Positions 20,783 to 25,146 of a stretch of 64,000 nucleotides of DNA are shown here, one piece after another. The notes beneath the pieces were generated by a model. It was not told the origin of the DNA, ran no database searches, and saw only the letters and a list, made by a program, of their open reading frames with translations. Both the position numbers and the translations under genes were made by a program. Every line of letters begins with the position of its first letter. The first letter of the stretch is position 1. Source of the DNA: Pelagibius litoralis (GTDB lineage Bacteria > Pseudomonadota > Alphaproteobacteria > Kiloniellales > DSM-21159); the NCBI GenBank assembly GCA_029287455.1, contig JARFRB010000141.1, positions 1 through 64,000 of the forward strand, in the 5' to 3' direction.

Positions 20783-21673
20783 CTAGTCCCCCGCCTCCAA
20801 GGTCAGCAGGCGTTCCTTGCGCGACAGGCCCCAGCGGTAGCCGCTGAGGCCGCCGTCGCCCCGGATTGCGCGGTGGCAGGGGATGACGAGCGACACCGGG
20901 TTGGTGGCGCAGGCGCGGCCGACGGCCCGCTGGCCTTTCGGCAGGCCCAGCAGTTCGGCGATTTCCTGGTAGCTGCGGGTTTCGCCATAGGGAATGGCGA
21001 TCAGCTCGTTCCAAACCCGGCGCTGGAAGGCGGTGGCGCGCACGTCGAGAGGCAGATCCAGGTGCGGCGTCTCGCCAACGAGATAGGCCATTAGCACATC
21101 CAGCGAATCCTGGATCGCCCGATCGTCCCGCTCAATGGAGTCCGCGGCCGGAAACTCCGCCTTCAATTCCTCGATCAGGACCCCATCGTCCTCGCCCAGA
21201 GCCAGAAAGCAGAGCCCAGCCGCGGTCGCGGCCACCAAGAGGCGGCCGAGTGGGGAATCGGCGAGGGAGAACACGATGCGCGCACCCTTGCCACCCTTTG
21301 CGTAGGTCGCCGGCGTCATGCCAAGGCGGCGCGCAGAATCCTCGTAGACCCGGCTGGAGGAGCCGTATCCGGCGCCGTAGGTCGCCTCGGCCACCCGGCC
21401 GTGGGCCCTTAGCTCCGCCTTGAATCGCTCGGCCCGACGCGCCTCGGCGTAGTCGCGCGGGGAGACACCGGTAACCTTGCGGAAGACCCGCTGCAGATGC
21501 CAGGGGCTCATGCCGACGGCGCGCGCCAAGTCGGCCAGGGTGAGGCGTTCGCCCTCGGCCGCGTCCAGAAGCGCGCAAGCGCATTCGACCGCGTCCAGGT
21601 GCCGCGGCCGCGTGCTTGGCTTGGCTTGGTCGGCCAACAGGGGGGCGTCCCGTTCCATGGTATCTACCTGCAT
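20783..21673 (-). CDS. ada: Ada-type AraC regulator/O6-methylguanine-DNA methyltransferase lacking the N-terminal Ada domain
   Basis: 296 residues. An AraC-type helix-turn-helix pair occupies about 25-125 (LTLADLARAVGMSPWHLQRVFRKVTG). The methyltransferase half runs from about 130 to the end with the acceptor cysteine C266 in IPCHR and the following GLSGYRWG. The zinc-binding methylphosphotriester domain with its Cys38-type sensor (about 80 residues in E. coli Ada) is absent. Such proteins repair O6-methylguanine, but how the regulatory half would be activated is unclear. Convergent with the SAF dehydrogenase gene. ATG 21658 is an alternative start. Confidence 0.92.
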   Translation of the reverse strand: MQVDTMERDAPLLADQAKPSTRPRHLDAVECACALLDAAEGERLTLADLARAVGMSPWHLQRVFRKVTGVSPRDYAEARRAERFKAELRAHGRVAEATYGAGYGSSSRVYEDSARRLGMTPATYAKGGKGARIVFSLADSPLGRLLVAATAAGLCFLALGEDDGVLIEELKAEFPAADSIERDDRAIQDSLDVLMAYLVGETPHLDLPLDVRATAFQRRVWNELIAIPYGETRSYQEIAELLGLPKGQRAVGRACATNPVSLVIPCHRAIRGDGGLSGYRWGLSRKERLLTLEAGD

Positions 21674-21969: not shown

Positions 21970-24303
21970 TCACAGACACTTCGAATGGCCGCAGGAGGTG
22001 CAGAGATCGCAGCCTTCCTGATGCACAAGAGAGAACGCGCCGCACTTGGGGCACTGTCTGAGCGGGCTCGCCGGGCCGCCCGAGGGAAGGTTCGCAACTT
22101 TGCGCCTTGCCTCGCTGGGCAGGTGATCCAGGCCGACCGAACCGGAGAGGAATCCAATATCGATCATGTGCCGCTCGATCACCTCGCCGATCGCGGCCAG
22201 CAGCGAGGGCACGTAGCGCCCGGACATCCAGGCACCGCCGCGCGGATCGAAAACCGCCTTCAGCTCCTCCACTACAAAGGCCACGTCGCCACCCCGCCGG
22301 AAAACCGCCGAGATCATGCGCGTCAAGGCCACGGTCCAGGCGTAGTGGTCCATGTTCTTCGAGTTGATGAAGACCTCGAAGGGCCTGCGGCGGCCATCCT
22401 GCACGATATCGTTGATGGTGATGTAGATGGCGTGATCGCTTTCCGGCCACTTCAGCTTATAGGTCCGGCCCGGCAGGGCCTGCGGGCGGTCCAAGGGCTC
22501 GCTCATGTAGACGACGTCTTCCGCCGGCTCCAGCGGCGCCGCGGCGACCAGGGCACCGCCAGCTCCCCCCGCTTCCGTTTCCGGCTCTTGGGCTTCCGGC
22601 GCTTCGGCTTTGGGCGCTTCCAGCACGGCGCCGCGCAGGGCACTTGGGCGATAGGTCGTACAGCCCTTGCAGCCGGAGTCGTAGGCTTCGTCATAGACCG
22701 TGCGGAAAGACTCGAAGTCGATCTCCGCGGGCAGATTGATGGTCTTCGAAACCGAGGCGTCGACGTATTTCTGCACGGCAGCCTGCATCGCCAGGTGCGC
22801 CTCCGGCGAGAGGCGCTGGGCATCGACGAAGGCCTCCGGCAAGGGAGCGTCCTCGCCGAAGCGCGCCCGGAACAGGCGGTAGGCATGGTCCTGCACGCTT
22901 TCCGGCCGGCGGCTGCCGTCCGGCTGAGTCACCTGGCGGGTGTATTCGAAGGCGAAAACCGGCTCGAGGCCCGAGGAGACGTTGTCGGCCAAGAGCGAGA
23001 TTGTCCCGGTGGGTGCGATCGAAGTGACCAGCCCGTTGCGCATCCCCTTCTCGGCGATCGCCCCGCGAATGTCCTCGTCGAGTTCGCCGACCGTCTCGCC
23101 CGAGAGAAAGGCCTCCCGATCGAACAGCGGGAAGGCCCCCTTCTCCGCCGCCAAGTCGGCGGAGGCGAGATAGGCCGCGCGCCGCAACCGGGCCATCCAG
23201 CGCTCGGCCGCCTCCACCGCCGCCCCGCTGCCGTAGACCAAACCGCAGAGGATCAGGGCATCGCCCAGGCCGGTGAGCCCGAGCCCGATGCGCCGTTTGG
23301 CCATGGCCTCCGCACGCTGCGCATCCAAAGGAAAGCGCGATACGTCGATGGCATTATCCAGCATACGCACGGCCACGCGCACCACCCGGTCGAGTTCCTC
23401 CTCGTCCAAGCGGGCGTCTTGCGTAAAACCGTCGCACACCAGGCTCGCCAGATTGATTGAGCCCAGCAAACAGGCCCCATAGGGCGGCAGGGGCTGCTCG
23501 CCGCAAGGATTGGTCGCGGCGATGGTTTCGCAGTAGGCGAGGTTGTTGCGCCGGTTGATCCGGTCGATGAAGATCACCCCCGGCTCGGAAGCGGCATAGG
23601 TCGCCTCGAGGATCTTGTCCCAGAGCTCGCGCGCCGGCAGGACCCGGTAGGTGGTGCCGCCGAAACTCAGCTCCCAGGAGGCATCCTTGCCCACCGCCTC
23701 CATAAAGGGGTCGGTCACCAGCACCGAGAGATTGAAGTTGGTGAGGTGCCCCGGCTGTTGCTTCGCGGTCACGAAGTCCTCGATATCTGGGTGATCGCAG
23801 CGCAGGGTGGCCATCATGGCGCCGCGCCGGCTGCCCGCGGACATAATGGTCCGGCACATGGCGTCCCAGACCTCCATAAAGCTCAGCGGCCCGGAAGCGT
23901 CGGCGCCGACCCCCGCCACTGGCGCCCCTTTCGGCCGCAAGGTGGAGAAGTCGTAGCCAATGCCCCCGCCTTGCTGCAGGGTGAGTGCCGCCTCGCGCAG
24001 GCCGGAGAAAATGCCGCTCATGTCGTCGGGGACCGTGCCCATGACGAAGCAATTGAACAGCGTCACGTTGCGGCCGCTGCCCGCCCCCGCCAAGATGCGC
24101 CCGGCGGGCATGAACTTGAACCCCTCCATTGCCTCGTAAAAGGCGTCTTCCCAGACTTCGGGTTGCGCTTCCGCGCGCGCAAGCGCTTTCGCGACGCGGC
24201 GCCAGCTGTCCTCGATCGTGCGGTCCAAGGGCCGCCCGTCCAGACCGCGCAGCCGGTACTTCATATCCCAGACTTGTTGAGAAATGGCGGATTCCAGCGT
24301 CAC
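21970..24303 (-). CDS. nrdJ: adenosylcobalamin-dependent (class II) ribonucleoside-diphosphate reductase
   Basis: 777-residue class II reductase that makes deoxyribonucleotides using coenzyme B12. The active site NPCGEQ is at 265-270, with C267 the thiyl-radical cysteine. The redox pair is C85 and C278 (GACLLGS); C278 is 11 residues past C267 as in Thermotoga NrdJ. The C-terminus is a Cys-rich tail (CPKCGAF...CDLCTSCGHSKC) that shuttles electrons from thioredoxin. GTG 24303 follows GAGGA by 6 bases. The promoter and LexA box upstream suggest DNA-damage control. It makes this cell's dNTP supply, at least in part, B12-dependent. Confidence 0.95.
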   Translation of the reverse strand: MTLESAISQQVWDMKYRLRGLDGRPLDRTIEDSWRRVAKALARAEAQPEVWEDAFYEAMEGFKFMPAGRILAGAGSGRNVTLFNCFVMGTVPDDMSGIFSGLREAALTLQQGGGIGYDFSTLRPKGAPVAGVGADASGPLSFMEVWDAMCRTIMSAGSRRGAMMATLRCDHPDIEDFVTAKQQPGHLTNFNLSVLVTDPFMEAVGKDASWELSFGGTTYRVLPARELWDKILEATYAASEPGVIFIDRINRRNNLAYCETIAATNPCGEQPLPPYGACLLGSINLASLVCDGFTQDARLDEEELDRVVRVAVRMLDNAIDVSRFPLDAQRAEAMAKRRIGLGLTGLGDALILCGLVYGSGAAVEAAERWMARLRRAAYLASADLAAEKGAFPLFDREAFLSGETVGELDEDIRGAIAEKGMRNGLVTSIAPTGTISLLADNVSSGLEPVFAFEYTRQVTQPDGSRRPESVQDHAYRLFRARFGEDAPLPEAFVDAQRLSPEAHLAMQAAVQKYVDASVSKTINLPAEIDFESFRTVYDEAYDSGCKGCTTYRPSALRGAVLEAPKAEAPEAQEPETEAGGAGGALVAAAPLEPAEDVVYMSEPLDRPQALPGRTYKLKWPESDHAIYITINDIVQDGRRRPFEVFINSKNMDHYAWTVALTRMISAVFRRGGDVAFVVEELKAVFDPRGGAWMSGRYVPSLLAAIGEVIERHMIDIGFLSGSVGLDHLPSEARRKVANLPSGGPASPLRQCPKCGAFSLVHQEGCDLCTSCGHSKCL

Positions 24304-24357
24304 AACCGTCCTCGAATCGAAAGTCAGCGCCTGATGGTGGGCCTGCCCGCCCCCTCG

Positions 24358-24386
24358 AAAATAAGAGCCAGGGCCGCGCTGGTCAA
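24358..24386 (-). promoter_or_regulatory. sigma-70-type promoter of nrdJ
   Basis: On the minus strand TTGACC (24386-24381) is followed after exactly 17 bases by TATTTT (24363-24358). Both are good matches to housekeeping consensus hexamers, and the nrdJ GTG lies about 55 bases past the -10, leaving a normal leader. Confidence 0.7.
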
Positions 24387-24392
24387 GAATTT

Positions 24393-24407
24393 GTTCTCTT
24401 AACGTTC
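24393..24407. promoter_or_regulatory. alphaproteobacterial LexA (SOS) box upstream of nrdJ
   Basis: GTTC at 24393-24396 and GTTC at 24404-24407 are separated by 7 bases, exactly the GTTC-N7-GTTC (equivalently GAAC-N7-GAAC) LexA motif of alphaproteobacteria. It lies 6 bases upstream of the nrdJ -35 element in a 120-base intergenic gap. Confidence 0.6.
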
Positions 24408-24423
24408 TTGTCCGCCGGCCAGG

Positions 24424-25146
24424 TTATTGCTTGCCTGCAGCTTCTTGGGTGAGCGTCACGCTTGCTGTCTCGATCGTGTCGCGCAAGCGGTTCAGGAACG
24501 CGCGGCGGTCCAGGCCTGGCGGTATCGGCGGGAGGAATTGCACCACGATCCTTCCAGGCCGCTTCGCGAAGGCCCGGCGGTACCAATAGGAGCCGGAGTT
24601 GACCGCCACCGGCACGATCGGCACTTCAAGCGCTTGATAGAGCGCCGCGACACCCGGGTGATAACGCCCCCCTTCGCCTGGCGTCACACGGGTGCCTTCG
24701 GGAAAGATCACGATCGTGCGGCCCTCGGCGAGCCTCGCGCGGGCCTCGGCGACCATATGGCGCAGAGCTTTCGCCCCACCGGAGCGATCGACCGCCACAT
24801 TCCCCGCCGCCGCGAGATACCAGCCGAACAAGGGCACGCGGAGCAGCTCCCGCTTCAGCACGAAGATGGCGTCGTGAATCACCACGGGAAAAACCAGCGT
24901 CTCGAAGGCCGACTCGTGCTTGCTCGCCACCACGCAGGGGCCACCAGGCATATACTCGCGCCCCCTCACCTCGTAGGACAAACCGCAGACGACGCGCAGC
25001 AGGACCAGCAAGCCCCGCGACCACAGCCGCGAGATCGGAAGAACCCACCTGGCCCCCAAGAGCACGCTGGGAAGCAGCAGTAACATCACCCCCACATTCC
25101 AAATCAGCGCGAGAATGTTGAAGCAAAAGGACCGGAACCAGATCAT
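24424..25146 (-). CDS. plsC: 1-acyl-sn-glycerol-3-phosphate acyltransferase
   Basis: 240-residue membrane-associated enzyme that acylates lysophosphatidic acid to phosphatidic acid. An N-terminal hydrophobic segment (8-35) anchors it. Acyltransferase motif I is SKHESAFET at 76-83, where the usual HX4D aspartate is a glutamate (H77...E82). Motif III FPEGTR and motif IV VPIVPVAVNSG are intact. Its start overlaps the stop of the YdcF-type gene by 4 bases; the run ftsE-ftsX-ydcF-plsC is a familiar alphaproteobacterial order. Confidence 0.93.
   Translation of the reverse strand: MIWFRSFCFNILALIWNVGVMLLLLPSVLLGARWVLPISRLWSRGLLVLLRVVCGLSYEVRGREYMPGGPCVVASKHESAFETLVFPVVIHDAIFVLKRELLRVPLFGWYLAAAGNVAVDRSGGAKALRHMVAEARARLAEGRTIVIFPEGTRVTPGEGGRYHPGVAALYQALEVPIVPVAVNSGSYWYRRAFAKRPGRIVVQFLPPIPPGLDRRAFLNRLRDTIETASVTLTQEAAGKQ

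Follow-up and report, generated by a model that had tools for sequence, protein, structure and literature searches.

The supply of dNTPs limits both repair synthesis and translesion mutagenesis. In Marinobacter, class I ribonucleotide reductase genes are named as members of the LexA regulon, and nrdJ is raised alongside repair and stress genes in a list separate from that of the LexA regulon (PMC8233155); the nrd genes of E. coli, in contrast, respond to UV without LexA (PMC1224876, PMC2556686). The remark in the initial annotation of the DNA described here that class I nrd genes are familiar as LexA targets thus needs care. UV also raises the class II nrdJ gene of Halobacterium NRC-1 about 2- to 4-fold (PMC1224876, PMC2556686), likewise a cobalamin-dependent reductase gene raised by damage, and damage induction of nrdJ as such is therefore not new. 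The mechanism must differ, however, because this archaeon has no LexA, whereas in our case a LexA box is the proposed switch.

Replication offers a related precedent: DnaA controls nrdAB in E. coli and is proposed to do so in C. crescentus, and E. coli uvrB and recN are co-regulated by DnaA and LexA (PMC8203912). The class I nrdAB genes, under damage or DnaA control, share with our case the tie of dNTP supply to replication and damage, although here the gene is the B12-dependent nrdJ and its promoter in the window (the whole 64,000-nucleotide stretch of Pelagibius litoralis DNA that was analysed) has no DnaA box. The uvrB and recN cases place two regulators on one SOS promoter, as we propose for nrdJ of relatives, but differ in gene, lineage and LexA motif, and dual control is not seen in the window promoter. 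In Pseudomonas, where ribonucleotide reductases including class II are likewise under transcriptional control, nrdJ answers to AlgR, Dnr and NrdR (PMC5738425, PMC4409342); LexA figures in PMC5738425 as a dinB-binding comparison, and no NrdR box was found at the window's nrdJ.

With the alphaproteobacterial LexA/SOS regulon, for which the Caulobacter LexA box is given as GTTCN7GTTC (PMC9578287, PMC12700426), our locus has in common the direct repeat, its spacing, its place at the promoter and a lexA gene with its own box; what differs is the target, a class II ribonucleotide reductase. The string 'nrd' is absent from the main text of PMC13384398, PMC6473078, PMC9578287, PMC12700426 and PMC1839093, and the literature searched, outside which lie two classic alphaproteobacterial target lists, yielded no report of LexA control of nrdJ. 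Here we argue, from comparison of DNA sequences, that LexA quite probably represses nrdJ in P. litoralis, with repression relieved by RecA-dependent cleavage, and that the box beside the nrdJ promoter is a predicted SOS operator.

The nrdJ promoter and its LexA-type box

The NrdJ protein matches the NrdJ_Z equivalog model TIGR02504 with 573.5 bits (cut-off 399.95, E 5.5e-172) and contains the domains PF02867, PF00317 and TSCPD; as the model was passed above its cut-off, the initial identification of the gene as encoding a B12-type reductase stands. Dependence on adenosylcobalamin is to be expected from the family, from which oxygen independence would follow as well. The GTG start (Table 1) is in line with the start sites of relatives, many of which read MTQVASISQQIW. 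Because the acyltransferase-like gene upstream, similar to a gene present in 54 of 80 relative loci, shares the direction of nrdJ, the 120-bp gap that holds the box lies ahead of nrdJ alone.

A promoter scan of 24280-24700 gave a single match, with 9 of 12 positions matching (shuffles average 0.1), and a pattern scan of the window located an exact GTTC-N7-GTTC direct repeat, GTTCTCTTAACGTTC in plus-strand letters, beside this promoter. On the nrdJ strand the box is separated from the -35 element by the 6 bp AAATTC, so that the arrangement described in the initial annotation – a GTTC-N7-GTTC repeat 6 bases from the TTGACC-17-TATTTT promoter of nrdJ – was recovered in full. The LexA matrix score of the box (17.5, see below) falls inside the range of the training boxes (minimum 15.7, 5th percentile 18.5). 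The promoter stretch has no match among plasmid records, and no cobalamin riboswitch was found in the window, where a tRNA is the only Rfam match at the gathering threshold.

Table 1. Features at the nrdJ locus and elsewhere in the genome (G000). Plain numbers are window positions; L numbers are loci on other contigs.
Feature	Location	Strand	Remarks
LexA-type box	24393..24407	-	nrdJ strand: GAAC-GTTAAGA-GAAC, then A; LexA matrix score 17.5
-35 element TTGACC	24381..24386	-	6 bp from box; promoter scan
-10 element TATTTT	24358..24363	-	spacer 17 bp from -35; promoter scan
nrdJ, class II (adenosylcobalamin-dependent, as expected from its family) ribonucleotide reductase	21970..24303	-	777 aa, GTG start; TIGR02504
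1-acylglycerol-3-phosphate acyltransferase-like neighbour, upstream of nrdJ	24424..25146	-	below curated cut-off
Ada/Ogt-type alkyltransferase	20783..21673	-	directly downstream of nrdJ
Second S24-peptidase/Cro-C1-HTH repressor	L010:1444-2076 (contig C6)	-	partial LexA-model match
LexA box, SRAP/nrdA gap	L163:1504-1518 (contig C123)		between divergent genes
LexA-type box	L157:1510-1524 (contig C8)		226 bp upstream of MraZ-domain frame
GAAC-N7-GAAC	L165:1509-1523 (contig C86)		130 bp before possible chelatase frame

On the same strand, nrdJ is followed directly by an Ada/Ogt-type alkyltransferase gene. An operon of nrdJ with this gene was considered and rejected, as tblastn (1e-5) found no Ada match in 80 relative loci, some of them incomplete.

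The exact pattern is not rare: the window contains it once against 1.47 copies expected, 75 of 100 shuffles had at least one copy, and the whole-genome count is 81, against 232 for a backwards-read control pattern. While a box within a 120-bp gap is improbable for one named gene, the window has many genes. A lone match therefore cannot carry the claim, and its significance has to come from relatives.

The element at nrdJ of relatives

Orthologs of nrdJ were collected from 98 relatives and from named genomes, giving 110 loci; subtraction of two short upstreams and four duplicates left 104, and 20 further upstreams brought the set to 124. One relative, G087 (L156), entered the kinship-sample scoring only, and the orthologs of G019, G022, G033, G044, G067, G076, G085 and G093 stand outside the counts.

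On the coding strand, GAAC-N7-GAAC occurs in 18 of the 104 nrdJ upstreams, against 0-2 for each other spacing from 0 to 15. A strict motif scan of the 98 relatives matched nrdJ of G087 alone, the motif being too strict for the order. When all 256 four-letter words were ranked as spacing-7 direct repeats, AACA (47) and ACAT (21) came out ahead of GAAC (18), and the definition was accordingly broadened to RWAC-N7-GAACA with TTGAC after it. Across 1.50 Mb of strand from 80 loci, this element together with its -35 was found 54 times, namely 51 times at nrdJ and three times elsewhere. Of 92 aligned boxes, 78 have TTG[AC] within the next 14 bp (445 of 5200 for random 14-mers), and the gap from element to TTG[ACT] is 1 to 11 bp among 80 of the 92 elements, with 5 to 8 bp in 59 of these 80. 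The element is more than an alignable region, since columns more than 6 bases before it or past the -35 hold at most 0.28 bits of information, compared with 1 to 2 bits in the half-sites. In 52 of the 92 aligned boxes the first half-site reads AAAC.

After clustering at 80% protein identity, the box is present in 42 of 51 nrdJ clusters, and among kinship-sampled relatives 24 of 51 reach a LexA matrix score of at least 12. Named strains with the element at nrdJ include Magnetospirillum moscoviense BB-1 (L050), Terasakiella sp. PR1 (L070) and BAL199 (L095), the last with a box of the GAAC type. Within the window's own family, 7 of 12 nrdJ upstreams hold the exact repeat, three of them (G003, G006 and G011) in the opposite orientation only, and 5 of 12 hold none. 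The search of relatives for the box that had been proposed with the initial annotation thus came out in favour of the box across the wider set, where the matrix score reaches at least 12 in 85 of 124 upstreams, but not in these five family members.

LexA and other candidate readers of the element

The genome carries a canonical lexA gene (TIGR00498 above cut-off, with LexA_DNA_bind and Peptidase_S24 domains), in whose product we picked by eye what we take to be the Ala-Gly, Ser and Lys of self-cleaving LexA; the gene has a LexA box of its own, GAACATGATTAGAACA. An exact repeat is present in 25 of 31 lexA upstreams of relatives. Among 28 chosen named relatives, all 25 lexA upstreams that were scored reach a matrix score of at least 12, and these 25 lexA boxes, which come from genomes mostly of the AAAC class at nrdJ, all have G at the first half-site position.

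The LexA matrix was trained without nrdJ boxes on 61 boxes, 54 of them distinct, taken from lexA and the nrdA/SRAP gap of relatives and from six own-genome boxes, the latter chosen by visual inspection for AT richness and proximity to plausible genes. Zero counts in its half-sites are imposed, because training required exact half-sites. We left out recA and uvrA because the exact box is patchy there (8 of 26 and 4 of 28, respectively); scoring of these two genes omits four recA and two uvrA loci without an anchor. A score of at least 12 is reached by 85 of 124 nrdJ upstreams, with 83 of the 85 sites in the same orientation, as compared to 4 of 620 shuffles and 13 of 1821 random windows, which are mostly coding (8 of 242 windows under 60% GC reach 12). 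Together with the 51 of 54 composites at nrdJ and the canonical lexA with its box, this count supports the LexA box that the initial annotation had placed at nrdJ.

The spacer offers a further test. With half-sites ignored, its letter order at nrdJ of relatives fits LexA boxes better than 2000 of 2000 permutations in each of three classes (AAAC, n=52; GAAC, n=28; GTAC, n=10), the permutations counting related boxes as independent, while 42 other matches to the half-site pattern in the nrdJ loci display no spacer fit (mean -7.44, permuted -7.36). Of our arguments for LexA, or for a protein sharing its specificity, as the reader of the element, this fit is the strongest. Whereas no permutation in 2000 did better than the relatives' set, the spacer of the window's own box scores -2.29, below the permuted mean of its own letters (-0.37; half-sites again ignored).

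This atypical spacer, the expectation of 1.47 exact repeats per 64 kb and the five family members without an exact repeat would all suit a reading in which the repeat of this organism arose by chance or has decayed, and nrdJ is not SOS-controlled here, though perhaps in relatives. The counts of spacing, matrix and composite lead us to reject chance alone for the relatives' set, though not fully for the single site of the window; that site, however, has the place, the orientation and a similar distance to the -35 as the boxes of relatives, and all but 3 of the 54 composites are at nrdJ. We consider chance or decay unlikely.

Slightly less probable again is that the main protein at the nrdJ site is not LexA but a repressor with similar specificity, for which the genome's second S24-peptidase/Cro-C1-HTH repressor (Table 1) would be an example. 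S24 genes with a partial match to the LexA model recur in relatives, and of their upstreams (~0.8 kb, L344-L361) 10 of 18 score at least 12 and 8 contain an exact repeat; the genome's own copy scores 13.6. A motif upstream of such repressor genes could mean self-control, but in these genomes the lexA promoter bears the motif too, and the boxes at S24 genes are therefore equally well explained by LexA. It also speaks against a second repressor that, of 28 genomes, 17 have exactly one strict AAAC-type element, always at nrdJ, and the other 11 have none. As an observation in its own right, the boxes upstream of S24 repressor genes suggest that a second repressor responds to damage, controlled either by LexA or by itself.

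Least credible of the three is that the AAAC-class element is primarily a DnaA site (TGTGGAAAC, two bases off a perfect DnaA box and overlapping the LexA half-site) or a joint DnaA/LexA site, with LexA secondary or activating as at a Rhodobacter recA promoter: while this precedent counts in its favour, as do the letters GTGG, each of which precedes AAAC in 36-39 of the 52 boxes of this class, and the occurrence of GTTTCCACA in 20 of 104 nrdJ upstreams versus 4 of 1781 windows, the AAAC-class spacers fit LexA boxes, the gap of 1 to 11 bp to the -35 suits a repressor over a phased activator, and a scan of 24300-24750, allowing one mismatch, found no DnaA box at the promoter in the window.

Repression by LexA is the reading that we prefer. 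LexA would bind the direct repeat just upstream of the nrdJ -35 (positions -56 to -42, approximately, relative to the expected start) and when bound would hinder RNA polymerase at the nrdJ promoter; upon DNA damage, activated RecA would trigger self-cleavage of LexA, nrdJ would be derepressed, and the cobalamin enzyme would provide more dNTP for repair. LexA binding, repression rather than activation, induction and a physiological benefit are what we infer from the comparisons above, and the loose gap to the -35 is easier to reconcile with a repressor acting by blockage than with an activator that has to touch the polymerase on one face. The atypical spacer suggests that the window's site is weaker than that of lexA, so that partial repression with basal nrdJ expression is to be expected, and the AAAC-type boxes at nrdJ may either bind LexA more weakly or be joint sites. 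If nrdJ is indeed an SOS gene, dNTP pools could be expanded after damage in low oxygen, given cobalamin, and survival of DNA damage would be tied to vitamin B12 status.

Other reductases, DnaA boxes and further LexA-type sites

The genome encodes three ribonucleotide reductases: a class I enzyme (nrdA and a class I small subunit, contig C123), the short NrdJ of the window and a 1181-aa frame on contig C67, which by its length we take to be of the long NrdJ type. The LexA box in the gap between the divergent SRAP and class I nrdA genes (Table 1) may serve both. Among 40 nrdA upstream stretches of relatives (taken from matches, up to 1.2 kb, with one, L241, of just 210 bases), 31 hold the exact LexA repeat and 23 a perfect DnaA box, and the own nrdA locus has a perfect DnaA box near the start of the listed frame. 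For the long reductase, the 1.5 kb preceding the domain match contained no exact or relaxed LexA box.

A gene for NrdR is present in the genome. We rejected membership of the window's nrdJ in the NrdR regulon because the best upstream site has 6 mismatches to the consensus; against the same consensus, NrdR-like sites with 3-4 mismatches occur in 4 of 104 nrdJ upstreams. In L081, L111 and L120, a palindrome CCACAA-N4-TTGTGG, near the NrdR-like pattern, lies ~30 bp before the box. The CtrA repeat TTAA-N7-TTAA was likewise discarded as a candidate, with 0 of 104 nrdJ upstreams containing it.

The commonest nine-letter word of the 104 nrdJ upstreams is TGTGGATAA, a perfect DnaA box, found within 350 bp in 30 of 104. 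Within 400 bp, a perfect box is present in 31 of 104 (33 over all 124), versus 3 of 1781 random windows; since these windows are mostly coding, other promoters are the fairer control, and there the counts are 3 of 31 for lexA, 0 of 26 for recA and 2 of 28 for uvrA. In the nrdJ upstreams of relatives (L016-L125), 33 of 35 perfect DnaA boxes point in one orientation, and where a LexA-type box was placed they start 57-147 bp ahead of it. With perfect boxes this frequent (31 of 104 upstreams), nrdJ may respond not only to damage but also to the initiation of replication. We tentatively extend this to a scheme that we hold possible but not probable, in which both nrdAB and nrdJ of Alphaproteobacteria would be wired to DnaA (replication initiation) and LexA (damage). 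In many lineages the two sites at nrdJ would overlap, TGTGGAAACATAACAAGAACA combining a near DnaA box with a LexA box; the change from G to A in the first half-site would be the price of the shared bases, and the result a compact competitive switch, of which the window organism would have a pared-down, LexA-only form.

Besides lexA and the SRAP/nrdA gap, LexA boxes of the genome lie at a radical SAM gene, a PNPOx gene and a presumably ImuA-like gene, which has no Pfam match. A GAAC-N7-GAAC repeat on contig C86, probably a chance occurrence, precedes a possible chelatase frame, the start of which resembles a CbiX-type cobalt chelatase. On contig C8, a LexA-type box lies upstream of a frame with an MraZ domain, a gene type with which the division and cell wall cluster usually begins.
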